Source of the DNA: Bryum argenteum
Taxonomy: Eukaryota > Streptophyta > Bryopsida > Bryales > Bryaceae
Direction of reading: 5' to 3'
Assembly (NCBI GenBank): GCA_037043015.1
Contig: CM073321.1
Span: 20,581,001 to 20,645,000 of the forward strand
Length of the DNA: 64,000 nucleotides
Both the position numbers and the translations under genes were made by a program. Positions 27,170-63,986 of this stretch are shown here, piece by piece (position 1 is the stretch's first letter; every line of letters starts with the position of its first letter). The notes beneath the pieces were generated by a model. It saw only the letters and a program-made list of their open reading frames with translations. It had not been told where the DNA came from and did no database searches.

Positions 27170-27945
27170 TATTTAGTATTTGAGTTTATTTAGAATTAAG
27201 AGGGTTTATTAAATTTGCTTCTAGGTCAAAAATATATTTTTGAATTTAACTTGAGTTGAGTTGAATATCCACAAACATTTAAAGCGAATACATTGCACGG
27301 TTGAGTATATCTCTAACTATGTGAGATTTCTAATTTATCTCGAATGGAGTTAAATATTACTGGGGTGTTTAAAATATCACGTGGCGCAGCCGGAAATCCG
27401 CTCCGTGAATTTCAACTTGACTCGAGTTGATGACTCGATTCCGGAAAGAGATCATCTCCTCACGGATAAACCAGAGGACTTGATGATGTCCAATTCAACT
27501 CAAGTCGAGTTGAATATTAACACCCAGGGACATAACATTCTTGATTCTGTAAATATTATTGATACTTTACAAATATCTCTCCAATTATGTGAAAATTTAT
27601 ATTTAACTCGATTCGAGATAAATATTATTGGGCTGATTACAATATCAAGTGTTCCGGACGAATATCCACAGTCACCGTGAATTTCAACTCGACTCGACTT
27701 GAAATTCCACACCTATACATGGAGCATCCCCTAACTAATAATCCAATTGAAACTAGAAGATTTCCCATTTCAACTCGACTCGAGTTGAATATCAACACCC
27801 ATGGATATATCATTCCTGATTCTGACACCATGTCTGATACTTGATGAATTACAATTTAACTCGACTCAAGTTGAAATTGAACAGTTGAAAACTGACATCT
27901 ATAGTACAGAGATATAATTTCTACTCGACTCGAGTTGAAATTGTA
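26838..27945. repeat. Field of near-palindromic TTCAACTCGACTCGAGTTGAA motifs
   Basis: About eleven copies of a 20-21-bp near-palindrome occur, for example near 26961, 27246, 27409, 27491, 27602, 27681, 27766, 27853 and 27918, at 60-120-bp intervals in A+T-rich DNA. Each has arms TTCAACTCG and CGAGTTGAA around a 2-3-base centre, and variants keep the pairing approximately. Related motifs flank the two transposase-like copies to the left, so the field may be the subterminal region of that element family. Confidence 0.8.
27119..27168. repeat. (TA)n microsatellite
   Basis: About 25 uninterrupted TA units. Confidence 0.98.
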
Positions 27946-27960
27946 CACAGAAGACCAGTA

Positions 27961-28583
27961 TGCTTAAACATTCTCCCGGAAATATCGGCGGTATTTACGG
28001 ACCTCAAAACCAGCTAACACTCGATATTATACAGTGACGTATACGGTGCGGCGTGGACATCTTCCAATGAATGAGCATATATACAAGATATAATCCCCAT
28101 AGACACAAAAAAGTTATCCGCAACCCGTGGATAACGTGCATGCTATTAATAGTAAGTGTTGAAATACAGAGGAATTGTGCCTTGCACTCAATTTGCAAAC
28201 CACGCTCACCTGTGATTTGCAGATTTCAAAAGGAAAAGTAGGGCTCCCAACTGAAGAGGCGTGCACTATCACTTTGTGTGCTAACCACATCGTGCGGCCT
28301 GGGATAAATTGGCAACATCCTCCCAAGCCACTTCAAAAATACTTGAGTGCGAACCCAAGCAAACAAACAATAAGAAGGTGGAACATATAAACATCCACCC
28401 TCCACCTAAACAAAAAATGGGTCGAACTTGAAAACACAGAGAGGTCTTAGCAAAGCTAGGGCCTGAAAGGCCTTCTTTACTCGCTCCCTGCACCTCCAAT
28501 GAAGTCCCATTCATGATGGTGCACTAGCTCCTCACAAACAATCTCAATAAATAAGATTGTAAGTGAGAAAATACCGCTTCCTA
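27961..28583. other. Non-coding stretch left of the methyltransferase-bearing Ty3 fossil
   Basis: No accepted gene. It could include the 3' untranslated part or LTR of the element whose coding region ends at 28584, but I found no matching repeat on the other side of that element. Confidence 0.35.
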
Positions 28584-29090
28584 TTAGCCTCCTCCAGGTC
28601 TCCTCTGGCATCGTGGGCAGAGCCATCGATCAGTAGGGATGTGATCTAGAGGTGGTGTTAAACACTGCGTGTGCCAACCTGTCGAACAAACGTCGCACAA
28701 AATCATTTTAGCAGCCCCTTGCGCTCTCCCACACAACATACATTTTAAGTTAGCGGAAATGATGCTTAAATTGGGATCCAGGTTGCCATCAATGTTAGGC
28801 AAATGACAAGGTGCACAATTTCTTGCATGATCCTTCCAGATTCGTCCGTCGCGGCCTTCTAACTCCAACACACCCCTTACAAGCACCTTCTTCACTCGCA
28901 AGATAATCCTGCCTGCCGTCACGTCTAATGTAGTTGGTGCCGTCTGTTGCAGATACACAGAATCACCGGGCAAAAATCTTCGTAACCGTGGTCTGAAGCC
29001 GCCTCCACGAATAGTGGCATATCTCAAGGTGTCGCGATGTTGTGCGATAGCAAGGTTTTCAAATGCCACAGGCATGATTCGTTGAAACAC
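28584..29090 (-). pseudogene. Post-integrase tail with PHD finger (Ty3 fossil)
   Basis: The tail begins with an integrase C-terminal, SH3-like segment (PRLRRFLPGDSVYLQQTAPT; RIILRVKKVLVRGVLELEGR) and ends with a Cys4-His-Cys3 finger: CMLCG, then ILCDVCSTGWHTQCLTPPLD, then WLCPRCQRR. Spacing C-x2-C, C-x2-C, H-x2-C, W-x-C-x2-C is that of a PHD finger. It sits where chromoviruses have their chromodomain. PHD fingers commonly read the histone H3 tail, so a targeting role is the natural inference. Confidence 0.85.
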
Positions 29091-29102
29091 TTGTGCACGT
29101 GT

Positions 29103-29855
29103 CTAACATACCTCCGCCCATGTATCCGGATCATCCATCTTGACCACTGTCTGGAAATCCCGCCAAATTGAAGCTGATAGGACTGGATCCCTTCCATATA
29201 ACAAGAAGTAGGGAGAAAAGGAGGCAAAGGAGGCTTGTTTGCTGAAACGATAGCTCATTGCCAACCACGACAATTGCAGGTCCCAATCTCTCGTATGTTC
29301 CCGTTGTAGCCCATATTTTGTGAGTGCCCTGTTGACAGTCTGCACCATACGTTCCGCCAGACCGTCTGCCTCAGGATGATCATGAGATGTTGTCCTATGA
29401 TCAATAAACGTTTGTTCCAACAAAAGTTGGAACTCTCCCAGAAATTCTCGGCCTTGGTCAGTCAATACTTCCGCAGGTGCTCCAAACCGCATGAATACTC
29501 GATCAAGAAACGAATAAGCAGCTCCCTCACTGAATTTGTCAGAGAGTGCTACCAACTCAATCCACTTAGAGAAATGTTTAATCATAACCAACACATATTT
29601 ATTATGTCTCTTGGTGATTGGTAATGGTCCCGCAAAATCCAAACTCCATCGATAGCCTAGACCCATAATCGGCAACGGTTGCAATATGGGTGTAGGTGCA
29701 TTAGACGAAGCACGGACCCTGTCACATGCTTGACACTTAGCAACTATACGTTGTACGTCTATTTGCATACCTACCCACCAATATTGAGTTTGTAAGAGAC
29801 TGTAAGTCCTCTTTACACCAAAATGCCCCAACTCTTCGTGAATGTGAAGCACCAA
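29103..29855 (-). pseudogene. Integrase of the Ty3 fossil
   Basis: The zinc-binding HHCC region reads HIHEELGHFGVKRTYSLLQ and CQACDRVRA. The catalytic core shows WSLDFAGPLP, VLTDQGREFLGEFQ and ADGLAERMVQTVNRAL, the D,D,E pattern of retroviral-type integrases. It lies immediately upstream of the PHD-bearing tail. Confidence 0.9.
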
Positions 29856-30016
29856 CTTTTCTCAATCTTGTGGTCTAGGAACCACACGTTTTCCTCCATC
29901 TGACAAATTCTTGAGCAGATGAGCCCCCTCCCACTCAAACCGTTTGGCTCGCTGCAGGATCCGGTCTCTCTTTTTAGAGGTGACAACATGTGTCAACACT
30001 TTATGCTTCAAATAAT

Positions 30017-30706
30017 CTAGAACTGCCACATCTTCAAAATATCTTGAGCGCCCCCAGACTCTTCTCTGTCTTCTGGTTGTTTAAAAAGATCATCAACTGA
30101 GTCTCCATTCTCCGCCAGTAAACTCAAGCACATGGACGCATGCCATCCCGAAACTTCTTCCTCATCTTCTCCAACGTGCCATCGTGCTCCAGTAGAATCC
30201 ACTTGGCTTGGACATGGATTTCTACTCAACCCATCCGCATCCATATTCACCAAACACAATCTATGCACCACCTTAAATTCGTATTCTTGAAGCATTAAGG
30301 CCCACCTCGCAAGTTTACCGGTTAACTTGTCAAATTCCATTAGCCGTTTTAGAAGTTGATGGTCCGTTACCAATAAGAATTCGCTCCCATATAAGTAACA
30401 CCAAAAATGGGCAATAGCCCATACTGCAGCCAAACATTCGCTTTCATATGAACTGTATTGTGCCTCTGCATTGTTGTTCGATCTGCTTGCATAAGCGACG
30501 ACAAACTCTTTTCCTTCATCGCCCATTTGAGTTAAAACAGCTCCAATGCCCAGAGTGCTCCAATCGGTGTGTAGTTGATACGATCTCTCCGGGATTGGCC
30601 TTCGTAATATAGGAGCAGATGCCAATCTTGCCTTTAACTCAACAAATGCTGCTTCTTGCCCGTCTCCCCACAACCATTCTTGATCATTTCGTGTAAGCAT
30701 TGTCAA
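30017..30706 (-). pseudogene. RNase H of the Ty3 fossil
   Basis: Typical Ty3 RNase H text: LHTDWSTLGIGAVLTQMGDE, VVAYASRSNNNAEAQYSSYE, CYLYGSEFLLVTDHQLLKRL, RWALMLQEYEFKVVHRLCLV and NMDADGLSRNP. Confidence 0.9.
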
Positions 30707-30722
30707 AGGTTTGGCTATACGA

Positions 30723-31625
30723 CTAAAGTTTGCAACAAACTTTCGATAATAGTTTGCTAATCTTGAAAAGCCCGTAATCGGCTAACATCTTTTGGTCTTG
30801 GAAAGCTTGCCAATGCCTCCACCTTGCTCTTCCACCAAGACCTCCTGGATAAATCATATGTCCCAAGTATTCAACTTGAGAATAAAAGAAGGTGCACTTA
30901 CTAGGGTGCAACTTTAACCCATGTTCTACCGAACAGTTAAAAACCATAGCAAGATGTCCCCGATGTTCTTGCGCATTGTCACAGAAGACAAGGATGTCAT
31001 CAATGTAACATTGCACAAATGGCAACCCAGCAAGTACTCGATCCATCACCCTCTGAAACTCGGCAGGTGCGTTTTTTAGTCCAAATGGTAGAAACTTCCA
31101 TTGATATAATTTATTCTTCCCAAATTCGTTTATACCCCAAAATGCCGTCTTACGTTTGTCTCCATCCCGTACTGGTAATTGGTGATAACTAGATCTCAAG
31201 TCAAGGGTACTGAACACTCTTGTATGCCCGATTGCGTCAAATATTTCTTCAGGTGTTGGCATTGCATATCAATCAGACTTAGTTGGCTTGTTGATCGGCC
31301 GATAATCTCCACACATTCGTTTTTCCGTCCAATTGCCAAATATATCTTTCTTGGAAGGCATCACGGTAGCAGATGCGTACTCCCCCTTAGATAACTCTAC
31401 CAACTGAGCATCAAACAATTCCTTAGTACGTGCCTTGATTAATTCTCTTTCCGCATCACTATACCGATAACGTTGGCGAAAAATAGGGGCATCATCCATC
31501 AAGTCAATTCGTACCTCTTGTCCTTTAAGGGCTCCCAAATCATTTAGTCCATATGCAAAACAATTCTTGAATTGCTTCAAGAATTGTTGCTCTTCGTGCC
31601 GTTCCACTCCCCCTTCAAGTCCCAC
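30723..31625 (-). pseudogene. Reverse transcriptase of the Ty3 fossil
   Basis: Visible blocks are VRIDLMDDAPIFRQRYRYSD, VMPSKKDIFGNWTEKRMCGD, VFSTLDLRSSYHQLPVRDGD, QWKFLPFGLKNAPAEFQRVM and FVQCYIDDILVFCDN with the YIDD polymerase motif, followed by YLGHMIYPGG. Order and spacing are those of Ty3 reverse transcriptase. Confidence 0.9.
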
Positions 31626-31787
31626 ATTAGGCTCTCAATTGTCGGGTGTCAATGGTGGCTTGTCCTCCTTTGGAGTGGAGGGCACTTTCCGTCGTTGCTA
31701 GGCAACCCCTCCGAGCACAGAGTCTTCTTCTGTGCCCATCATATGCGCCTCTAACGGTGTGATAAATTTTTCATTTCCCCATAATCT

Positions 31788-33277
31788 CTAAGGGTGTATT
31801 GCCTCTCTTCCTTCGCCCCCAGCTACCTCATTAGCCGCCCCCGGCTGAGGTAGATTTAAAAGAGAAGCTCTCATGGAAGCATATGAGTGTATAGATGGTG
31901 TAATTGTAGCTAAGCGACGCTGGTCCGCAGTTACAATAGCCAAAATCCAAGTCAAGCAATTCAAGTCCATCGCTCGACCAATGAGCATTCTTCTTTGATA
32001 CTCGAAGATAGAATTATCAAACAAGTGAGTTGTTCCTGAAAGAAAACCCATAACCCTTTCTCGTTTATCAGCATTTGGTTCTTCGGTAACATACTCAGTG
32101 CCACTCATGTCCAGGATGGTACCAGGTCCATCTCCACGAAATGCGTAAGACTTCGAAAAACCCACGAACGTCGGCAATGCTCTACGAGGCTCTCCAACTA
32201 TGTTGACCACCGCGTAAGGAGGTTTGTCGGCCCATCTCACATCCCGTGGGCGTCGGTGAGGATCCAAAATATCTTGGACAAACAACTCAGAAGGTCGTGA
32301 GGTGTTTTCATACACACTTTGCAAAATAATTGCCGGAATCAAGTTGGTCCACTATTGGCGTGCCCGATGGGCTCGGAAACCAATCTGAGCTGCATCCAAA
32401 GTAATAGAAGGTCCAAGTATTGCGTGGATTTCTCTTCAAATTTCTCTTCAAATTTCTCTTCAAATTTCAAATTTCAAATTTCAAATTTCTCTTCAAATCT
32501 CTTCAAATTTCTGCCTTTAGACTGTAAACTGACCGGCACATTCTCAATAATATAACCCGGACCAGTAGTCTGTATCCCTTGAAGAGTTTGTAGAATTTGG
32601 ATGAGCTCATGAAAACATGCACTGCGTGTGTCATGGAGTCCGTTTTGGTTGCCTGCCATTGAGAGTCCTTGATACGGCCATCCTGCAATGATCAAGTCCA
32701 TCGGCCCATGTGTACATAGTTGTTGGGCGTCTACCAATCGAACATCTTGTGCTAGTGCAGTAAATGAGTTGGTAGTGGCCTCCAATGATAATAAATTGGG
32801 GTAACGGCATTGGAGCTTGGCGACCCTCTGAGCCACATGATCATTGTCCACATATAAATATTTGCGGACTTTGATTCCGGCTTGTAATGTTGCAGCAAGG
32901 CCCGTGCCAATACCATCGAATAACTCCGATAAACATACTCCCGAATGTGGAAATTGCCAAATAAGAGGTGTAGTCACCAATGAAGAATGAATCGGTAATT
33001 GCTCAACGCCCGCAGCTTTTTGGACTGTGGAAGGTAAGACATTCGATACCTTAGTCAAAGTTTGGTTGGCGTGCTCCAACAGATCGGCCGTAGATTTCCA
33101 TATTGCGGTAGCATTATGGACTTGGTCCAAATGGCTGCTTCGAGAAAGAGTAACAAGCGAATGTGACGGAGATGTGTCGGGCTTGGTCGTCGCCTTGAGA
33201 TCGAAGTCGTTAGCACTACTAGCCATAGCAAATGCCACATAGTGACTATCGGAATCTCGTATAAACCGTGCAGGCAA
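31788..33277 (-). pseudogene. C5-cytosine DNA methyltransferase domain within the Ty3 fossil
   Basis: The minus-strand text contains the cofactor-binding block CLSELFDGIGTGLAATLQAG, KYLYVDNDHVAQRVAKL, the motif IV neighbourhood DLIIAGWPYQGLSMAGNQNG, and the motif VI block GYIIENVPV. C-terminal blocks follow (RERVMGFLSGTT; RRMLIGRAMDLNCLTWILA) that match motifs IX-X of eukaryotic DNA methyltransferases. It lies between the protease-like region and reverse transcriptase on the same strand. The family transfers methyl groups from S-adenosylmethionine to cytosine C5. An N-terminal extension (33277 to about 32950) has no domain I recognise. Confidence 0.85.
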
Positions 33278-33304
33278 GATAGCCTGACGACCATCACTAG
33301 CTTG

Positions 33305-34406
33305 CTACCCTAGCCGATATGAGGCTGTCTCATTCCAAAAATTGAGCGTAAAACCCATAGGGTACAGTACCATAGCTCCAACTAGTACGTCATATGATGT
33401 CACGGGAGTGATAATAGCCTTCACTTTAATTGCAGCTGAGTTCAGGACGTCTTCAGGTTGGAGTCGTAACAACAATGGTTGGGAAGTGATACCCGTAGCT
33501 TTCTCAGACCCGCCCATAGAGGTGTTAATAGTAAAGGGACATGGTTCTAAAGCTCCTCCATGTAAGTCCAACACCTCAATGGCCGCCTTGCCCAACATAA
33601 GCGGTTGGGCCTCGGAATCCAATAACACCCGTTGTGGTACAAATACTTGACCATTAAGGCCTATAATTTGCAAAACACTACGTTTATTATCCACCACAAC
33701 AACACCTGGTGTTACGGAAGCCCTCTCAATGGCCGGCCTATGTGGCATAGTTTGAATACGTGCGGCTGCTACAATACAAATTGTCTCCTTCCATAAGTCC
33801 ACTATTGGTATTGACTGTTGCAACGCTCCTACCCACCATAGGTGCAGGAGAGCGCATGCTAGAATTTTTGCACATTGCGGCTGCAGTCTCCAACACCGAG
33901 CTAATGTTAACTCCAAGTGCTTTGACGACTTCAGCAGAAAATAACGGAGTTTGACACACAATGGTTGCAGCTTCGGAAATATTGTCTTCTTGTGCACGTA
34001 TAACCCGAGGTCTATACTGTCCATGTGTTGGAACCAACTCCACGTCCTCTAGAACAAATGATGCTGGAAGTCTTACTTGTTGTTGTGCTTCTCCAACTTG
34101 TGGATCAAGGCCACTGGTAGCTCCACATGGTATCTCTTGGTGAGCTTGAGCCCGAGTTGTAACGTAGGCTGCCTCTGCGAGAGCACAAAACAACTCGTCC
34201 CAAGCTCCATAATACGATGGAGCTTGCCCTTGCTCAGCTTCAGACACCTCCTTAATCTTCAACGCTGCCACAATTGAAGCTCTACTAGTCATCGGCATGG
34301 CCGACCTTTCTCTCGCCAAGTTTACTGCAATTGAGTCAGTAGAAAGAAAAACGAACTCCAACGTAGGTGGAGTTGCAGATGGTAAACTCAAAACTCTCGC
34401 CCTCAC
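33305..34406 (-). pseudogene. Protease-like region of the Ty3 fossil
   Basis: The segment VFVPQRVLLDSEAQPLMLGK, followed by VTSYDVLVGAMVLYPMGFTL and FWNETASYRLG, resembles retropepsin-type proteases of Ty3 elements. The upstream part (34406-33750) is hydrophilic, with no recognised motif. The position between gag and pol supports the call. Confidence 0.65.
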
Positions 34407-34421
34407 GAGTTGCTTCAGCTT

Positions 34422-35173
34422 CTAATCAAGAATGTGGTACCAATAATTAATTGCTTGAGCAACCGTAACGCCTTCAGTGCTTTCTACTAATCGTCGCAAT
34501 CGATGATAAGCATCCCGAAAGGTCTCCTTGTCTTTGAGTTGAAATTGTTGCAGTTCCAACATCATGTCGAGTCTTTGACCTTGATAGTTTACTTGCAAAA
34601 CTTCAAAGAATGACATGATAGGATTAAACAAGGGCCCAGGTCCTGAAGTGACCTTGGCCTTACCTTTCTCTCCTCCAGAGCTTCCTTCACCCTCTTCTTT
34701 AGCTCCCATATCTGCAAGAGTGAGTGTGCCAGCACCCACTCGGCGATTTCCTATAAACATTTCTCCACCAAATAAGTTTTTGAAATCAGGTGCCCAATAT
34801 GCCCGAAAAATGTCAATCTCAGTCACATGCCTGACCTCAAACTCAGAATAGTCATGCATTGGAGCACCTTCCAAATGTTGAAAGAGTGCTTGCCATGTAC
34901 TATAGGAATTAAATCCCGGACGTCGTTCTGATTGCCCATGGTACCAGGCTCCAAACTCAATAATAAAGTCCTCCAACTCAATGGTGCCCAAATGAATCGA
35001 TGAAGGCCTTGGGAAGCTCCATAGACGCGAGCCATCTCGTCGTCACTATCGTAGCAGTAACTGTACTCTCCAACCTCTTCAGGTATCTCGCCGAATACGA
35101 TGAGATCGGGTTCCGACGCTTCAAACTCCTGCTCACTTTCAACTTCTTCCAACTCTTCTGGAAGAGGTGTCAA
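34422..35173 (-). pseudogene. gag-like region of the Ty3 fossil
   Basis: The acidic N-terminus (PLPEELEEVESEQEFEASEP) is followed by a capsid-like part (FFEVLQVNYQGQRLDMMLEL; LKDKETFRDAYHRLRRLVES), with the spacing of a Retrotrans_gag domain. It is the most 5' part recognised. Confidence 0.7.
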
Positions 35174-36493
35174 GTAAAGGCGCCCACTTCTAGTGACGCT
35201 GTGTGGAAAATCCAGATTGAATCAGGAAATTATAAGGCGTAATAATTCCACATGGACTGCTTACCCGGTTCGGCTGGATAACATATGTTATCCAGCCGAT
35301 TTAAAATTGAGAATTTTGCGAGTTTGTTGCGCTACCACAGTGGTGGCTCTCTCAATCCACCCGGTCTCTTCTTTGTGCGAAATCGTGTGGAATGAATAGT
35401 TGTCCTTCCAATATTCACTAAAGATAAGAGAATACAAGGGTAGTGAATCAACTTCACTCCTCCGAATCCACTCTGTTTGGGATCGAAGTCCTTGGTTTTT
35501 CACCACAATCACGTCCGCCTTGACCACAAAATCTGCAAATCGCACGAACCCACGATTGAGTGCTTGTGGTGAAATTTACTCGCGACGTTGGGTCTTCAAG
35601 GCTTGTACTGCGTTGAAGCCGCCCCCTCGTCCCCAATATTCAATTGATCTCGGTCCCAACACCTTGGTTCCGGGCGCTCCCAACCGTTGAGTGCCCAACC
35701 TCGATGCTGCTTCTGGTGATAATGTGAATGGCAGAGGCTGCACAGACAGAGAAGTACTAACTCCTACGGTGCTTCTAGTAATTCTTCCTACAACAGTTAA
35801 GTCTACACTTCGTCCTACCAACTCACTACAATCTCTTTCTACTATTTTGCCACAAATACAAAGACGTTGTGGGTTAGTAGTAACACTATCGGAATCATGT
35901 CCCTCCATAAACTATTGTCACTCTTATCTTACCTAAGTGTTAGTACAATACATAGATGGTGCACACCCAGGCATCTGCGCAAAAAACTAAAGGAAGAATT
36001 ACGGGGGAAGGCATAGTCTAAACAGTAGTCATGAAGTTATATCCAAAGTGGGTTATCAAGTATTGAATTAGATGATGTTTTGCAACACAGCATATAGAAA
36101 TAGAGAAGTTAGAAGATGGCATAAGAAGCGGTGCAGGATAGAACCCCCGATCCATGTACTCAAATTAACTAGTACTTAAGTATTCCTAATTATTATTAAA
36201 CTGTTCTCTAGTTAACTATTTATGAGTGCTTAACGATCATCCTAGTATCCCCTTATGCGCATCGCTCAATGCCTCAATGCCTCTCCTTCATGACCCATGC
36301 TCATATAATATATGCGCTTAACGATCATCACAGTATCCCCTCATGCGCATTGCTCATAAAATATAATTATATAGGGCGTATAGGGCCAACTACAAAATAT
36401 TAAAATCGGTATGTAACACCATAAAATTAAGATAAGTAGGCCCAGTTGAAGTACAGTAGACCTGCTTCACCACCACAATTAACCAAGGTGGAT
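35174..36493. other. Region upstream of the Ty3 fossil; 5' leader or LTR not resolved
   Basis: A hairpin (GGCTGGATAACATATGTTATCCAGCC, 35271-35296) is a near-perfect 26-bp palindrome. Minus-strand frames at 35908-35454 (including GRITRSTVGVSTSLSVQPLP) are unassigned; they may be leader or part of the element. From 35950 to 36493 I see only A+T-rich DNA with a diverged repeat of TTAACGATCATC(C/A)(T/C)AGTATCCCC at about 36230 and 36320. Confidence 0.4.
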
Positions 36494-36684
36494 GCCACGT
36501 CGGCAATATATTCAATAACGCCACGTCAGTAATATATTCAATAACGCCATGTCAGCATTATACTTGACCCGCCACGTCAGCAGTATATTGGCCCCGCCAC
36601 GTCAGCAGTATATTGGCCCCGCCATGTCAGCAGTATAATGGCCCCGCCACGTCAGCAATATACTGACCCTGCGCACGTCAGCAA
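36494..36684. repeat. Tandem array of 25-26-bp units containing CCACGTCAGC
   Basis: About eight head-to-tail units of the form GCCACGTCAGCAxTATATTGGCCCC occur, with early units ending TTCAATAAC. Nearly all keep the ACGTCA core, the consensus of plant bZIP (C/G-box hybrid) sites. The array is followed by a poly-T run (36685-36700). Confidence 0.88.
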
Positions 36685-36699
36685 TTTTTTTTTTTTTTT

Positions 36700-37610
36700 A
36701 ATTTTTTAAAAAGAAAAAAATCTCCTCAGTGCTTTTGACAGCACCTCCTTCAAATTCGGCACTGCAGCTTCCGATTCGGTATTGCAGCTTCAGTACCCCT
36801 TTTCAGTACCTTATCGCAGGTACTACTGAATGCGCAGTGGGCGGGCTTGTGTGGACCTCCGACAAGCACGCTGATGCAGGAAGCTTGGTCGTCGTTGAGC
36901 ACTAGAGAATCCACCGCCTTCACGGCAGAACCCACCGCGTCCACCCCAAAACTCGAGTTTGTACTCTCCCAGCGCTCCGCCTTGTCTCCTCCGAAGCTGG
37001 AACGAGTATCGCCGAGTCCCCTTCACGCATCGCGGCTTCCCGTCGTTCAGCTCTTCACATTCGTGTAAACTGACAAAACAAGCTCGCCTTCGACAGGCAA
37101 ACCATCCGGACAGAAAGTCCTCACCGTCAAATGAAGCTACTACAATTCCTACATGCATGTACTCAAAAGCAGGAGGAGCACCATGCGGAAACAAGAACCA
37201 TGAAACCTATACAAGCCAGACTGCTACTATCATGTGACGTCACCCCGACTCTCGTCGTCCGTCCACCTAGGTGCTTCGGCCGTTCACCGGCTGGAGCTGC
37301 TCCTTCCGAACAGGTTCATTATGCTAAGAAGTCCCAGCCTTAAACTACTACATAGGTCCAAGATTTCGTTGCAGAACGCATCAGTTGCTAGCCAAACACC
37401 ACCACCTGACCAATCAACAGATGGCAGCCACCATGTTCCAATACACGTAATGTCACGCAACAAAACTGGCTCTCCTCTCTCTACATCACTCGCTCCACTA
37501 ACAACCACTCTCTCAGTAAGAAATCTATCAGCTTTTCAGAATCTCCTTCGAACTCCAGACCACCAAGCCCCTATTCCTCGCGGCAGCTGCTCGCTAGCTC
37601 GTCTTCCAGC
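36700..37610. other. G+C-rich stretch without accepted genes
   Basis: Open frames occur on both strands, but none shows a recognisable domain. The sequence adjoins the S3 pseudogene and could be carried DNA of a transposon. A frame at 37194-36823 (minus) is Arg/Gly-rich and probably spurious. Confidence 0.35.
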
Positions 37611-37920
37611 ATCGCTACCCAACTGAGCAAGAAACGCAAGTTCGTTGCTGACGGTGTGTCTTTCGCCGAGCTTAACGAGCTCCTCACCTGCGAGCTCGTC
37701 GAGGATGGCTACTCCGGCGTGGAGGTCCGCGTCACATGCGAACCAAGTTCATCATCCGGCTACCCGCACCCAGATTCCCAGAACGTCTTGGACGAGAAGG
37801 GACGGAGGATCAGAGAATTAACTTCTATGGTTCAGAAGCGATTCCAGTTCCCCGAGAGTACCATGGAGTTGTATGCGGAGAAGTTGAACAAGGGTTCGTG
37901 CGCTGTCTCCACCAGTCAAG
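37611..37920 (+). pseudogene. RPS3: Ribosomal protein S3 (uS3) fragment, intronless and broken
   Basis: The plus strand reads [20 protein letters not shown], then [28 protein letters not shown] in a shifted frame, [28 protein letters not shown] and [11 protein letters not shown]. This matches the first 95 or so residues of plant cytosolic uS3 ([15 protein letters not shown].., [20 protein letters not shown]..). The start codon is ATC instead of ATG, small indels shift the frame around the MRT block, and similarity ends at about 37920 inside the KH region. No intron interrupts it. It is either a retrocopy fragment or a host fragment captured by a transposon. Confidence 0.85.
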
Positions 37921-39745
37921 CCCCGTCCGCCGGCATCTCCTCCGCTCAAATCCCACAGCTTCACCTTCTCGACGTCTCCTCCGCTCAACTCCCATAGCTT
38001 CTCGGCGTCATGCAGCGCCACCGCCTATACGTTTGCCAGAATGAAGCTCTTCGCCGTTACTTGATGTTGCTTGCGCCGCCGCGGCGTCTCTGCTCTCCGC
38101 AGCTCCTTGTTCTACAGCGCCACGCCGCAAACCCCGAGTGCCTTACTCCCCGTCAAGTCCTACTGTCACTGATCCTCGCAAACAATATTTTCTCGCCAAC
38201 TTTGCCAAGAGCTTACAAACTCACTTAGGGCAAAATTTAGACACGTGAAAGAAAAAGAAGAGAGACGAATGACATGTCAGAATGAAATGTCAAGATGAAA
38301 GATATCAAATATGGATGAAAAGACGTCACGCATCCCATACAAGACAAAGTCTTGATGCTTTCATCCGCTATTGCCTTGGATGAAAGCTATGGTGACAATC
38401 TCATCTCCTCTTTTGCAAAATCAGCACACGAGAGTGTCCATAAAACACCTCTAAACACTAAACTTTGGGATTTTTAAGTGTCCTAACTACCTCATGTACA
38501 CTTATAAGTGAAATAGGATCTTTCTAAAGTCATGATAAAGCGTAGAGAAAACCCAGTATGGGTGCAAAAACTCTACTAGTTAACATTAGAAAGATGAGCC
38601 TTCTAGGGTTTGGTTCCCTTAAGTACTAAGGGCCTCCCAAAGTACTTAATAAGAGCCTCCTTTCTATCCTACTCTTTCCTATCCTGTCTCACCCTCCCGT
38701 GGCGGCAACAAGCCCCACGACATTATTTGGAGGATCGCTACACTATTCCTTACAGATGAAACCACGGACAACAATCAGTAGCTAATACAGAAGTCGAAAA
38801 ATACATGACGGACAACTGTCATAACTTGAAATAGAATCAAACTAATACATCATGCGCCTTTTCCACAACACTAAAACCTCTAAAAGAGAAACTACATCGG
38901 ACGCAGTCAGCACCAACTGGAACTCCTTCTACACAAACACGCAACCTTGAACACACACACCGGAACAGAATATCAAACTAAGCGCACCTTGAGAGCACGA
39001 TCGAGAGTGAGAAAATGAAAGAAAAGGTTAGTAGACTGACTAGCCCGACCCCAGCCCGACCTCAACGACTACATCGTGAGAGTATCCTCAACGCCCGATA
39101 TCGTGCAAAAAGCCGACGCATTTAGTCACACCATGAACTTTGTCTTCATTAGGCTCCGAAATAGGATTCCACTATTTATAACGGGATTTTCAAAATATTA
39201 GGCGGCAAAGATGTTTCGGCGGGAAACTGATTTTGGAGGGAAACTCATTTCAAAATATGGATTCTTTATATTTTACAAACAATTGTGTCTTAAAATTTTC
39301 TCCATAAATTTAGTTATTTCATAAATAACTATGACTTGTGGAAAAAAAATCCAAATTCGTATTTATATATTTATTGAATAAAATATAATTATCGGACCCT
39401 GTTTTTTTGATTGTGTGCCAATATGTTTAAATGCGCATTAAGAATAAGTATAGTGTCTAGAATCCGACCTAAGTATGTGATAGGCCGTATACTATAAGGC
39501 AAATAAGTTTAAACAAATACGTGTTAACTTTAGAATGTAGTTTTTAATAAAAAGGACGGGTTCGTGAATCCGTACTTTGCACTCGAATGGCGAGGACGTA
39601 CAGTCTGAAGCCGGAAATGGGTTAAAGACGGCAGCTAAAGGCCGGAGTGGGTGGAAGGACAATCATGACGTGGAGTGCCAAAGACGGCTCCGTATGAGGT
39701 CATGATGGCGGACGTACAGGTTATGATGGTCGGATACCAATCCGA
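37921..39745. other. Non-coding stretch between the S3 fragment and repeat R
   Basis: Just after the S3 fragment, a CTCCTCCGCTCAA(A/C)TCCCA(C/T)AGCTTC block is duplicated (37936 and 37976). The remainder to about 39700 is mixed to A+T-rich, without genes I can support. A left boundary of repeat R could not be set; it may begin near 39500. Confidence 0.4.
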
Positions 39746-48352: not shown

Positions 48353-51300
48353 CGGGGATGTCATGGCGTCCGGACGTCCGGCGGACGTCCGCCAGGGGTC
48401 CGAGGACCGTCCGTGACTTAGAGATTTTGGTCTTTTTACTAAGGATAAATGACCATTGGCGTGCATTCATTGGTTGACCCACCCCGTCGATCGGTCCTCC
48501 AGCTCGTCGTCGGCCCGGGTGACCAGCCGTCGGCCTCGGCGACCGGCCCTTGCCTCCGGTGGCCAGATGGACCGCTTCAGCATCCATCGGTTATTTTCAA
48601 ATTCCGACGGTCATATTCAGAGTTGGATAGTATATAAGAGGAGAGACATAGAGTCTCATTTCACTTCCGAATTTTGAACACTTTCTAAGGGCTTTGAGTT
48701 GCACATTGCTTGGTAGATATTGAATTCGGAAGTGAGGATTTCCGTAAGGATCTCTTGCCAATTCCTTTCACGTCCCGGTTCCACCATTGTTCTGACTTCG
48801 AGGCGTCCTATTTATCAAAATAGGCCTCGTTCCACATGAGCCTTGGTTTTAAGACATCGAGAAGAAAGGCAAAGCGTCTGATTCCTTCTTACACTGCTCC
48901 CTATGTCACGTAATAGTTTCCAAGAAGAAGAGTCGGAATCAGAGTCATTATGGGTACGAGAAGATTCCTCAACATAGGGATTCGAGTTCTGCCCTTTGCC
49001 CAAAGCTGCCTAGGGAAATTAGGCAGTTATTTTTAAGATGTGGCGGGGAGTTCCCTCTATATAACGGAGAATTGGACGGATTTCTTGGTGAATGTTCTCT
49101 CACTCCATCCACGGACGTTCCAGGTGCTTCAAAACATGACATTCCTGAAACCCCTAGGAGTGACTCTTGTGTAGGATCCTCTGTAGGCACCCCCATGAAT
49201 TCAACAAATCTTTTGGTTGGATCAACCTCTGCTTCTTCCATGCATATGAGGGGAATAAGGGATACTCGCCCGATGTTTGGATCTATGAAGCAAACCAAGC
49301 AATCTTCAATTGAAGCTACTTTTGCAGAAGCGGATAGGCGGGAGTTGGATAAACTCTGGGCGAAATTTTTTTACGAAGCAAATATACCATTCTCAGTAGC
49401 CCGCAATGATGCGTTCAAAGCTGCTATGATGAAGACTGCTGGATTTCGAAAATCCTATGCTCCACCATCTTACCATGACATTCGGACAAGGTTGTTGGGA
49501 GAAGTAAAGACGGAGTTACAAAAGAAACTAGATAGTAGACTCTCGGAGAGCCTTCAGAAGTTTGGAGGAACTTTGACCATGGATGGATGGTCATCTGTGA
49601 CTAGTCGCCCTTTGGTGAATGCGATGCTCGTGACTCAAGCTAGAGAGCTTTTTCTTGGAGTTGTGGATACTACTGGCATAGGAAAAACAGCGGTGTATAT
49701 TTCAACTCTCATGTTGGAGTACATAGAACAAGTTGGACCAGAGAACATTGTTCAAGTATGCACAGATAATGCTTCTGTAATGCTCAATGCCTCAAGAATA
49801 GTCCTTGAGAAATATCCGCTCATTTTCATGCAAAGACGTGCAACACATGCAATGGACTTGTTGTTGGAGGATTGGGGAAAGGCTGGATGGATGGCGTATA
49901 CTTTGGTCATGGCGAAGAAAATGGTCAAGTTTATCAAGAGGCGACAAATGCCCCTAGCTGTGTTTCGTAAACACGAGGCGAAATTCAGCCTCCTGATGCC
50001 CGGGAAAACAAGATTTGCTAGTCAATTCATAATGATAGATCGCTTGTTGGAGGTCAAGGAATCATTGGAGCAAGTTGTTGTCGACCCTATGTTCACAGCC
50101 TATGCCTCGAAGAAGACGGTATCTGCTAGAGAGAAGCTTATATTCTCTCGTAACGTCAAGAAGGTAGTGTTGAGCGATGACTTTTGGGAGCAATGCAAAA
50201 GATTACGGGATATGGTGGCCCCTATAGTCTACGCTTTGAGAGAATTCGACGGCAAGGCTCCTAGTACGGGCAAGGCTTGGCATATCATGCGTGATCTTGA
50301 GAGACATGTCCATACTTTGCATGCAGCGCCAATCTCTTTGGAACCACTTGAGGTGGCCACCGCAAAAGAGGAGTTTTACCATCGGAAACGGCTCATGACA
50401 ACTAATTTACATGGCGCGGCTGCACTTTTAAATCCTTATTTACTACATGACCAAGAGTTAGCTGACGATCCCGATCTTACAATAGCTTGCAAGCGTGTTT
50501 TACAAAAACTATGTCCCGCGGAAGATTATGCAGACGTGGTGAGTGAATTTCTTGTGTTTCAAGTAAGAGGTCCACCATTCCATGACATGCTGGAGCCTAA
50601 ACCTGAAAAACTAGCTCGACATGCATGGTGGGAGTTTGAAGGTGCTTGTGCTAAGCTCCTCTCTCCAATTGCAAAGCAAATACTAGCACAGACCGTGTCC
50701 TCGTCGGCTTGCAAACGCAACTGTAGTAGCTATTCTTATGTTCACGACAAGAAACAGAATCAGTTACTTCCAAGGAGAGCTAATGACTTGGTCTACATAT
50801 ATTCCAACTCGAAATTGCTTGCGAATGATAAGTTGAGTTACGATGGGCGGTGGTATAGAGAGAACTTGGATATAGAGGAAGACCAAGTACATGAAAACGA
50901 TGAGGAAGCTGTCGAGGACAAATCAGAGTCTGTAACAATGATATTTTTGAGTTTGGAGATAAAGACGATGATATGACTTTCTTCCCCGCTTCAAATGATA
51001 AAAATGCTCCAAACGTTCAGGTCTTCAGGATGCTTAGGGTGATTTTATCGCTAATGGTGTTTCGGCGGATGATCTAGAGGATGAGCAGCTCTTAACACGG
51101 TTAATGACACAAGGCGGCATGGACAAATCGAATAACATCCTACCTGTTATTGCTAGTGGTTTACGATTGGAAAAGGAGGCGATAGATGTGAAGACCACTG
51201 CGTGCAATACTACTGCGGGCACTGTTAGCGTTGATCCGGTCGCGGGGAATATCGCATCCGGTAGTAAGGATCAAGTATCTTTACAATGTGCTACTCCCCG

Positions 51301-61640: not shown

Positions 61641-61931
61641 CGGCCAGATGGCCCTTTTGAGCATCCAACGGTTTAGGAGCATTTCAACTTCAAATTGCAA
61701 CGGTCATATTCGGAGTTGGATGGTATATAAGAGAAGACACATTGAGTCTCATTTCACTTCCGAATTTTGAACACTTTCCAAGAGCTATGAGCCACATAAT
61801 TCATTTTATGTGTACATTGCTTGGTAGGTATTGAGTTCGGAAGTGAGGATTTCCGTAAGGAACTCTTGCCATTTTTTTCCCCGTCACGGTCCCACCATTG
61901 TTTAAGACTTTGAGGCGTCCTATTTATCAAA

Positions 61932-63986
61932 ATGGGCCCTGCTCCACATGAGCCTTGGTTTAGAGACATCGAGAAGGAAGGCAAAGCGTCTGATTCCTTC
62001 TTACACTGCTCCCTATGTCACGTAATAGTTTCCAAGAAGAAGAGTCGGAATCAGAGTCATTATGGGTACGAGAAGATTCCTCAACATAGGGATTCGAGTT
62101 CTGCCCTTTGCCCAAAGCTGCCTAGGGAAATTAGACAGTTATTTTTAAGATGTGGTGGGGAGTTCCCTCCATATAACGGAGAATTGGAACTATTTCCCGG
62201 TGAATGTTCTCTCACTCCATCCACGGACGTTCCAGGTGCTTCAAAACATGACATTCCTGAAACCCCTAGGAGTGACTCTTGTGTAGGGTCCTCACTAGGC
62301 ACCCCCATGAATTCAACAAATCTTTTGGTAGGGTCAACCTCTGCTTCTTCCATGCATATGAGGGGAATAAGGGATACTCGCCCGATGTTTGGATCTATGA
62401 AGCAAACCAAGCAATCTTCAATTGAAGCTACTTTTGCAGAAGCGGATAGGCGGGAGTTGGATAAACTCTGGGCGAAATTTTTTTACGAAGCAAATATACC
62501 ATTCTCAGTAGCCCGCAATGATGCGTTCAAAGCTGCCGTGATGAAGACTGCTGGATTTCGAAAATCCTATGCTCCACCATCCTACCATGACATTCGGACA
62601 AGGTTGTTAGGAGAAGTAAAGACGGAGTTACAAAAGAAACTAGATAGTAGACTCTCTGAGAGCCTTCAGAAGTTTGGAGGAACTTTGACTATGGATGGAT
62701 GGTCATCTGTGACTAGTCGCCCTTTGGTGAATGCGATGCTCGTGACTCAAGCCGGAGAGCTTTTTCTTGGTGCTGTCGATACTACTGGCCAAGAAAAAAC
62801 AACGGTGTACATGTCAACTCTCATGTTGAAGTACATAGAAGAAGTTGGACCAGAGAACATTGTTCAAGTATGCACAGACAATGCTTCTGTAATGCTCAAT
62901 GCCTCAAGAATAGTCCTTGAGAAATATCCGCACATTTTCATGCAAGGGTGTGCGACACATGCAATGGACTTGTTGTTGGAGGATTGGGGAAAGGCTGGAT
63001 GGATGGCGAATACTTTGGTCATGGCGAAGAAAATGGTCAAGTTTATCAAGAGGCGACAAATGCCCCTAGCTGTGTTTCGTAAACACGAGGCGAAATTCAG
63101 CCTCCTGATGCCCAGGAAAACAAGATTTGCTAGTCAATTCATAATGATAGATCGCTTGTTGGAGGTCAAGGAATCATTGGAGCAAGTTGTTGTCGACCCT
63201 ATGTTCACAGCCTATGCCTCGAAGAAGACGGTATCTGCTAGAGATAAGCTTATATTCTCACGTAAGGTCAAGAAGGTGGTGTTGAGCGATGAGTTTTGGA
63301 AGCAATGCAAAAGACTACGGGATATGGTTGCCCCCGTGGTGTACGCTCTGAGAGAATTCGACGGCAAGGCTCCTAGTACGGGCAAGGCATGGCATATTAT
63401 GCGTGATCTTGAGAGACATGTCCATACATTGCACGCACCGCCCATCTCATTGGAACCACTTGAGGTGGCCACCGCAAAAGAGGAGTTTTACCATCGGAAA
63501 CGGCTCATGACAACGGATTTACATGGCGCGGCTGCACTTTTAAATCCTTATTTACTACACGACCAAGAGTTAGCTGACGATCCCGACCTTACAATCGCTT
63601 GCAAGCGTGTTTTACAAAAATTATGTCCCGCGGAAGATTACGCAGACGTGGTGAGTGAATTTCTTGCGTTTCGAGTAAGGGGTCTACCATTCCATGACAT
63701 GCTGGAGCCTAATACTCAAAAACTAGCTCGACATGCATGGTGGGAGTTTGAAGGTGCTTGTGCTAAGCTCCTCTCTCCAATTGCAAAGCGAATACTAGCA
63801 CAGACCGTGTCCTCGTCAGCTTGCGAACGCAACTGGAGTAGCTACTCTTATGTTCACGACAAGAAACGGAATCGGTTACTACCAGGCAGAGCTGATGACT
63901 TGGTCTACATATATTCCAACTCGAAATTGCTCGCGAATGATAAGTTGAGTGATAATGGGCGATGGTATAGAGAGAACTTGGATTAA
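61932..63986 (+). CDS. hAT-family transposase, open frame (684 aa)
   Basis: Cut-and-paste DNA transposase. The N-terminal finger-like region (about residues 25-60: FLHCSLCHVIVSKKKSRN with a downstream His) is a likely DNA-binding domain. The DUF659-type region holds TLTMDGWSSV, with the first catalytic Asp, and VCTDNASVMLNA, with the second. The C-terminal dimerisation region WWEFEGACAKLLSP leads to SACERNWSSYSYVHDKKRNR, where the Glu is the expected third acid, and LPGRADDLVYIYSN. The ATG at 61932 was chosen because the protein then includes the Cys region and lies 200 bp after a TATA box. The stop TAA comes right after RENLD; copy 1 reads on past this point (TAT in place of TTA), so this copy may be shortened at the C-terminus. 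No other defect is visible. Confidence 0.9.
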   Translation: MGPAPHEPWFRDIEKEGKASDSFLHCSLCHVIVSKKKSRNQSHYGYEKIPQHRDSSSALCPKLPREIRQLFLRCGGEFPPYNGELELFPGECSLTPSTDVPGASKHDIPETPRSDSCVGSSLGTPMNSTNLLVGSTSASSMHMRGIRDTRPMFGSMKQTKQSSIEATFAEADRRELDKLWAKFFYEANIPFSVARNDAFKAAVMKTAGFRKSYAPPSYHDIRTRLLGEVKTELQKKLDSRLSESLQKFGGTLTMDGWSSVTSRPLVNAMLVTQAGELFLGAVDTTGQEKTTVYMSTLMLKYIEEVGPENIVQVCTDNASVMLNASRIVLEKYPHIFMQGCATHAMDLLLEDWGKAGWMANTLVMAKKMVKFIKRRQMPLAVFRKHEAKFSLLMPRKTRFASQFIMIDRLLEVKESLEQVVVDPMFTAYASKKTVSARDKLIFSRKVKKVVLSDEFWKQCKRLRDMVAPVVYALREFDGKAPSTGKAWHIMRDLERHVHTLHAPPISLEPLEVATAKEEFYHRKRLMTTDLHGAAALLNPYLLHDQELADDPDLTIACKRVLQKLCPAEDYADVVSEFLAFRVRGLPFHDMLEPNTQKLARHAWWEFEGACAKLLSPIAKRILAQTVSSSACERNWSSYSYVHDKKRNRLLPGRADDLVYIYSNSKLLANDKLSDNGRWYRENLD

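Follow-up and report, generated by a model that had tools for sequence, protein, structure and literature searches.

Can a retrotransposon carry, on one strand, both an enzyme that writes DNA methylation and a finger that reads histone tails, and where such a pair is met in a single broken copy, is it a trait of a family or an accident of one locus? The question is raised by a 64,000-nucleotide stretch of the Bryum argenteum genome (GenBank assembly GCA_037043015.1, contig CM073321.1, positions 20,581,001 to 20,645,000 of the forward strand; hereafter the window), in which a first-pass annotation, made from the letters alone, had placed at 28584–35173 a fossil Ty3-type element with gag, a protease-like region, a cytosine methyltransferase, reverse transcriptase, RNase H, integrase and a PHD finger. 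The element in the window is a dead, broken Ty3/Gypsy copy, and the pairing of methyltransferase and PHD finger is real, family-wide and broadly distributed. The fuller reading, that this dead copy stems from a family with a DNMT3-class methyltransferase behind gag and protease and a PHD finger on the integrase tail, the two acting as proposed below, is given a probability of roughly 0.55.

Homology to other copies in the same genome extends the element to about 28260–38754 on the minus strand, in the order A repeat, leader, gag, protease, methyltransferase, UAG, reverse transcriptase, RNase H, integrase, PHD finger and B repeat; the interval annotated at first pass holds the coding modules and the element is longer. 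All of the modules named there were recovered in the order given and on one strand, from Pfam matches to ten separate window open reading frames (E values listed below), motif positions and homology to copies. Gag, the protease, the N-terminal part of the reverse transcriptase and the second methyltransferase piece had no Pfam match above cut-off among the window frames and were identified by homology to other copies, for which the reference throughout is a copy on contig C3 (L009 with L021; the C3 copy). The features, from the 5′ end of the element, are:

38531–38754, minus strand: A repeat (5′ terminal; single copy, with an internal deletion); blastn aligns it to the A repeat of the C3 copy in two pieces, at 96% and 92%.
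36545–36683, minus strand: 5′ leader, tandem array with 5.5 copies of a 25-bp unit.
34274–35221, minus strand: gag remnants (frames 34823–35221 and 34422–35042, and the 5′ part of 33738–34421), recognised by homology to the C3 copy's frame of 1278 codons.
33305–34048, minus strand: protease-like region, with its active-site motif at 33599–33625.
31788–32926, minus strand: predicted DNMT3-class cytosine methyltransferase in two frames; DNA_methylase (PF00145), 1.3e-9, for the first frame.
32900–32926, 32666–32683, 32534–32551 and 31959–31979, minus strand: methyltransferase motifs I, IV, VI and X, respectively.
32430–32498, minus strand: microsatellite-like stretch within the methyltransferase, about 69 bases against about 10 in other aligned copies.
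31698–31700, minus strand: UAG stop (TAG CAA) separating the gag–protease–methyltransferase frame from pol.
30723–31634, minus strand: reverse transcriptase in two frames, YIDD in 30984–31010; RVT_1, 1.1e-30, for 30723–31268.
30017–30781, minus strand: RNase H; RT_RNaseH, 4.5e-33.
29103–30080, minus strand: integrase, H2C2 zinc domain and DDE core; Integrase_H2C2, 6e-16, and rve, 4.2e-13, for 29103–29861.
29619–29642, 29442–29465 and 29343–29366, minus strand: integrase motifs.
28608–28742, minus strand: Cys4-His-Cys3 PHD finger at the integrase C-terminus; PHD (PF00628), 7.4e-11.
28260–28481, minus strand: B repeat (3′ terminal; single copy), 90.6% to the B repeat of the C3 copy.

That this copy is dead, as first suspected, follows from its broken frames, the loss at about 34274–34280 of the zinc-knuckle stretch present in the gag of the C3 copy, the extra microsatellite-like bases in the methyltransferase, and motif IV of that enzyme, which reads GWPYQG and so has Tyr in place of the catalytic Cys; the protease motif is altered as well (DSE, against DSG in the C3 copy). 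Of the methyltransferase motifs first named, I, VI, IX and X stand, with further motifs and in canonical order, whereas the motif IV neighbourhood lacks its Cys. The ends are degraded, and no target-site duplication was found for this copy. Against the C3 copy, transitions occupy 59/707 CpG positions and 306/8399 others, a moderate excess that, as a comparison of these two copies and of no other elements, would fit methylated CpGs.

Whether the pair belongs to the family was addressed by a census of the 259-Mb assembly (25 contigs). An RNase H query, with 149 places scored of 2110 candidates, separated 11 places of the window lineage (at least 52% identical) from the next best (43%), and a methyltransferase query returned 13 loci in 16 rows. 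A methyltransferase locus lies within 5.2 kb of every one of the 11 lineage places; among the other 138 scored Ty3 places the nearest to any methyltransferase locus is 53 kb away. The PHD module occurs within 10 kb of 8/11, the three copies with no nearby match being those near C1:5.35 Mb, C1:22.12 Mb and C3:4.64 Mb. A query with the integrase tail and PHD finger returned 20 loci of the family, including these eight. The annotation had made its claim for the family, to be abandoned if other copies of the same pol lineage lacked the two modules; the counts speak against this, and the pair recurs in green algae and bryophytes. A methyltransferase inserted as a separate unit is an explanation made unneeded by the census, although flanking duplications of its own were not looked for. 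Beyond the 11 copies, methyltransferase locus L011 retains part of the reverse transcriptase, and L015 aligns to the window across the protease-to-methyltransferase stretch only. Two further observations concern the family in this genome. A second subfamily, about 43–45% identical in the methyltransferase, comprises L018, L019 and the loci C10:7389783 and C1:22116943, with L018 and L019 clustering with protein P0175 in an integrase tree; and contig C1 (44 of 259 Mb) holds 8/11 family RNase H copies against 32/138 other Ty3 places (Fisher p 0.0013), a skew that either site choice or the retention of copies on a chromosome with little recombination could explain.

Searches of protein collections carry the pairing well beyond Bryum. 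The methyltransferase part matched 55 proteins, among them some from Calypogeia fissa, Marchantia polymorpha (many), Sphagnum fallax, metagenomes and the eukprot entry Chrzof1, which we take to be Chromochloris zofingiensis. The integrase tail and PHD finger of P0032, itself a methyltransferase-bearing protein, matched 192, of which the best 120 were examined; those listed include Haematococcus lacustris, Tetrabaena socialis, Volvox reticuliferus and Chlamydomonas reinhardtii. With a profile made in this analysis, a methyltransferase domain was detected in 98/115 new proteins among these listed matches and in 76/86 of those spanning reverse transcriptase to PHD finger, mostly from green algae and metagenomes. 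Conversely, the integrase and PHD finger of the C3 copy matched 437 proteins (best 120 examined), those listed including Klebsormidium nitens, Calypogeia, Marchantia, Riccia sorocarpa and Sphagnum, and a PHD finger is present in 71/73 listed relatives whose sequence continues for 55 residues or more beyond the integrase tail. Its recurrence in green-algal and bryophyte relatives marks the pair as a trait of the family rather than an accident. Bryophyte gene models mostly hold one or the other of the two modules; for Klebsormidium the PHD finger comes from the C3-copy search and the methyltransferase from the available text of de Mendoza et al. 2018 (PMC5890265). The single bryophyte model with both, among the matches listed, is P0207 (Marchantia Mp_7g09570), which joins methyltransferase pieces, an integrase remnant and a PHD finger, and could be a decayed copy or a domestication candidate.

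Across the 290 collected proteins, 85 hold reverse transcriptase, RNase H, methyltransferase, integrase and PHD finger in one frame, and two layouts are distinguished by where the methyltransferase sits: before the reverse transcriptase in bryophyte-type elements, after RNase H in most algal ones. In 83 of the 85 it lies between RNase H and integrase, followed in 27 of these, from chlorophyte-type elements, by a G-patch (e.g. P0034, P0048, P0052); in the remaining two, P0049 and P0055, it precedes the reverse transcriptase. This difference in position is one ground for supposing that bryophyte-type and chlorophyte-type elements captured a DNMT3 domain separately, on a shared ancestral integrase–PHD module. 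An unrooted DNMT tree (84 of 146 domains) agrees, placing the before-reverse-transcriptase and gag–protease–DNMT rows, 34 in number, on the opposite side of one branch from the other type (Shimodaira–Hasegawa-like approximate likelihood ratio test, SH-aLRT, 84; 95 for 32 rows), and two acquisitions were inferred by de Mendoza et al. for two Symbiodinium DIRS forms, as far as the text available goes (PMC5890265). Against this, the domain sets behave as one searchable family, Klebsormidium and bryophyte rows group together in the integrase tree (92/98), and a single capture followed by relocation fits equally well. The DNMT and integrase trees disagree on where P0049 and P0055 belong, both being on long branches; in the integrase trees they stand among chlorophyte-type rows, which neither scheme explains simply. 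Two captures stay a serious contender, somewhat short of an even chance. Of the integrase trees (a first of 78 of 141 domains, drawn like the DNMT tree by sub-sampling plus named rows, and a last of 51 chosen rows), the last, which also gave the 92/98 grouping, unites the window family with Riccia, Calypogeia and Sphagnum rows (99/97); some tree rows marked as lacking a DNMT domain are merely incomplete frames.

What the PHD finger would read is suggested by its kinship. The best matches of the window finger among solved structures in the PDB are CHD4, KDM5A PHD1, Lid, PHF12, an MLL3 homolog, KDM5B, KMT2D, Cph2, ATXR5, UHRF1 and PHF21A; the fingers of CHD4, KDM5, UHRF1 and PHF21A read unmodified H3 tails. 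The window Pfam matches, taken up to an E value of 1, include no chromodomain. Several marks are read by PHD fingers as a class, and the presence of PHF12, MLL3/KMT2D and ATXR5 among the nearest matches leaves room for another ligand than unmethylated H3K4, or for a finger that simply stabilises the integrase tail without steering integration. The prominence of CHD4, KDM5A PHD1, Lid, KDM5B, UHRF1 and PHF21A, and the full C4HC3 spacing kept in 191/211 PHD domains of at least 40 residues, speak against both of these readings, which together we consider doubtful.

The methyltransferase is assigned by sequence to the DNMT3 class. Motifs I, II, III, IV, VI, VIII, IX and X follow in canonical order, not rearranged as in DRM enzymes, and the domain of the C3 copy finds DNMT3A first in the PDB (4e-11), then DNMT3B and DRM-type enzymes (8e-6 to 1e-3), with HhaI (5e-4) and DNMT2 (0.27) weaker and no DNMT1 or CMT among the 54 matches listed; the P0032 domain matches more weakly (DNMT3A, 0.0016) with the same order of classes. 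The seven other genomic copies read at this position (C3, L010, L011, L012, L013, L014 and L015; the more distant L016–L020 lie outside the reading) all keep the catalytic Cys. The domain is under purifying selection, with constraint equal to that on reverse transcriptase and RNase H: measured against the C3 copy and pooled, dN/dS comes to 0.34 over 7 copies of the methyltransferase, 0.34 over 6 of reverse transcriptase–RNase H and 0.50 over 7 of gag–protease, values that post-insertion decay inflates.

A domain that is mainly non-catalytic or RNA-directed, serving DNA or RNA binding, packaging or RNA methylation, has been considered in place of a DNA-methylating enzyme. It gains from five proteins in which the domain is recognisable and yet Cys-less, four of them volvocine (P0080 and P0105 of Tetrabaena, P0097 of Volvox, P0122 of Chlamydomonas) and the fifth P0146, and from KnitGypsy-Dnmt3, a Gypsy element of Klebsormidium nitens whose enzyme yielded no detectable methylation in yeast, a result that its authors call inconclusive (PMC5890265, in the text available). 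However, the Cys is present in 136 of the 141 rows, among 161 aligned, that have a residue at this site, and the motif VI Glu in 142/148, and dN/dS equals that of the replication enzymes, where binding alone would have let catalytic residues drift; we hold this alternative to be improbable. A local accident, in which a DNMT3 retrocopy and a PHD gene, both from the host, came to lie in or beside a Gypsy element, has nothing in its favour beyond the single window copy and is refuted by the domain's presence at 11/11 pol copies and by the 85/290 single-frame proteins.

How the two modules would be expressed is best read from the C3 copy, in which an open gag–protease–methyltransferase frame of 1278 codons is followed by UAG and then by a reverse transcriptase–RNase H frame of 561 codons, the latter with Ty3 reverse transcriptase as its best PDB match (2.6e-76); the order reverse transcriptase, RNase H, integrase is that of Ty3/Gypsy elements. 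Further downstream the pol of this copy is frameshifted, and a programmed frameshift between RNase H and integrase was rejected because three copies aligning across the stretch differ there and lack the defect. UAG followed by CAA separates the two frames in 7/7 alignable copies. Stop-codon readthrough is used by some retroviruses, and readthrough at this UAG, which we infer from its recurrence, would place the methyltransferase in the Gag-Pro product and the PHD finger in the Pol product. Further upstream, and overlapping the beginning of gag, lies another frame of some 226 codons (window 35288–35911, split; L009 3666–4346), open in L009 (226 codons) and L011 (225). The 25-bp leader array has an ACGT core, which may be a bZIP site, and reaches 9.5 copies in L010 (3065–3304) against 5.5 in the window.

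The terminal repeats are split, and two full flanking long terminal repeats (LTRs) of the Ty3/Gypsy kind are not present. A layout A–coding–B–A–B occurs in the C3 copy (A1/A2 alike at 306/309 positions, B1/B2 at 225/226) and in L010/L023 (297/301 and 211/225), and A–coding–B in L012, L014 and the window copy; because the repeats are split in this way and the element measures about 11 kb, self-comparison of a window part and twelve 10-kb stretches detected no ordinary LTRs. All four copies with both ends resolved begin with TGTC, end with GACA and are flanked by 4-bp target duplications (TAGT, CTAT, CATC and CGAT), the call for L010/L023 being made with 8.7 kb unread between its two stretches. 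Such TG...CA ends and short duplications, of 4–6 bp, go with the DDE integrase of Ty3/Gypsy elements. A purine-rich stretch lies upstream of B1, and in both B–A–B copies the inner B–A junction reads GACA-GC-TGTC, which looks like two joined element ends.

From these parts the following course is proposed. The methyltransferase, because it precedes the UAG, would be made at Gag-like levels and sit in the particle, where it would methylate newly made double-stranded complementary DNA (cDNA); a readthrough fraction would supply reverse transcriptase, RNase H, integrase and PHD finger. The finger, akin to readers of the unmethylated H3K4 tail, would bias integration towards H3K4-unmethylated, mostly silent chromatin, in parallel with the part thought to be played by chromodomains in chromoviruses, so that under this writer–reader proposal, drawn from sequence, a new copy would arrive already marked like its surroundings. 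Because the inner GACA-GC-TGTC looks like two joined ends, replication may involve a circle that holds two ends, or the copying of a template through the B–A junction, with the DDE integrase, and not a tyrosine recombinase, performing insertion. A more far-reaching version is held only tentatively: that the lineage predates the chlorophyte/streptophyte split, methylates its own cDNA, steers integration with a PHD finger reading H3K4me0 and couples DIRS-like split-repeat, circle-type replication to a DDE integrase, the volvocine writer being dead and its domain kept for binding.

Several observations weigh against the proposed course and temper its probability. The UAG common to related copies could equally reflect descent from one copy, and in several predicted gene models of Marchantia and Sphagnum (P0007, P0014, P0020, P0035, P0054) the methyltransferase runs on into the reverse transcriptase. 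The sequence after A shows no recognisable tRNA-type primer site. In the census, 12 of the 20 integrase-tail/PHD loci are solitary, neither RNase H nor methyltransferase being matched within 10 kb of them; L022, the sole one of these that was read, is a decayed fragment that lacks a long reverse transcriptase frame. To these are added the yeast result, the reading of the PHD ligand from kinship with fingers of more than one kind, and the volvocine loss of Cys, which, with the 10/86 reverse-transcriptase-to-PHD proteins in which no methyltransferase was detectable, indicates that writing is not universal and that the enzyme is dispensable in some lineages.

Transposons are usually viewed as targets of DNA methylation, and a lineage most of whose members carry both writer and reader makes it testable whether a transposon may gain from it, the Cys-less volvocine members offering a natural contrast for the role of the methyltransferase domain. 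Elsewhere in the window, seven spaced copies of a palindrome-rich repeat lie 3′ of the element (27243–27966), and two near-alike long open reading frames (48853–50976 and 61914–63986) have, by eye, the look of hAT-type transposases; inspection by eye of the window frames of at least 180 codons brought out no host gene, and no search for one was made.

Among known systems the closest is KnitGypsy-Dnmt3, described by de Mendoza et al. 2018 as a Gypsy LTR polyprotein with a non-rearranged Dnmt3-type domain, present in several copies under purifying selection and with DIRS-like A–coding–B–A–B repeats (legends of Figs 1 and 4, PMC5890265, in the text available). Polyprotein, domain type and repeat layout (C3, L010/L023) are shared with the window family, and since Klebsormidium nitens has integrase–PHD proteins, KnitGypsy-Dnmt3 is probably the same kind of element: three K. 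nitens integrase proteins group with bryophyte rows, two of them with a PHD finger (P0176, P0200), although the published DNMT-bearing K. nitens entries were absent among the matches listed. PHD is not mentioned in the available main text of that paper. Beyond its account, so far as available, lie the bryophyte members, the domain's place between protease and UAG, the 4-bp target duplications with TGTC/GACA ends, the second domain position in chlorophytes and the Cys-less volvocine members. Ty3/Gypsy and DIRS elements that encode methylases are on record for green algae and charophytes in a 2019 review, which cites older work and names cytosine or adenine enzymes for the green algae, so that a methylase in a green-algal element is no novelty in itself; the review gives such elements as not found in land plants, such as tracheophytes, and its available text has no mention of PHD (PMC6338049). 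Bryophytes do have methyltransferase-bearing elements, as the Calypogeia, Marchantia and Sphagnum proteins attest. The first-pass statement that no described element has both modules agrees with our literature search, which found no paper on the pair (titles and abstract openings, with subscription papers and preprints thinly covered, hence weak evidence of absence), and is qualified by KnitGypsy-Dnmt3; the window family is probably of that kind, with a PHD partner and a host range that this search found in no paper.

SymbioDIRS-Dnmt3 and SymbioLINE-Dnmt of Symbiodinium are likewise retroelements with cytosine methyltransferases, and the former shares the repeat layout of the window family, but these forms use the tyrosine-recombinase machinery of DIRS or that of a LINE (PMC5890265, in the text available). 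The window family departs from the tyrosine recombinase and absent target-site duplications that define DIRS elements, having a Ty3-type reverse transcriptase, a DDE integrase and target-site duplications instead. Chromoviruses, whose Ty3/Gypsy pol ends in a histone-reading chromodomain with a suggested role in site choice, differ in having that domain where the window family has a PHD finger at the integrase C-terminus, the methyltransferase being extra to the latter. In animals the ADD domain of DNMT3 reads unmethylated H3K4; relative to this cellular enzyme, whose catalytic domain is predicted to be of the same class, the window family has writer and reader on separate parts of its polyprotein.

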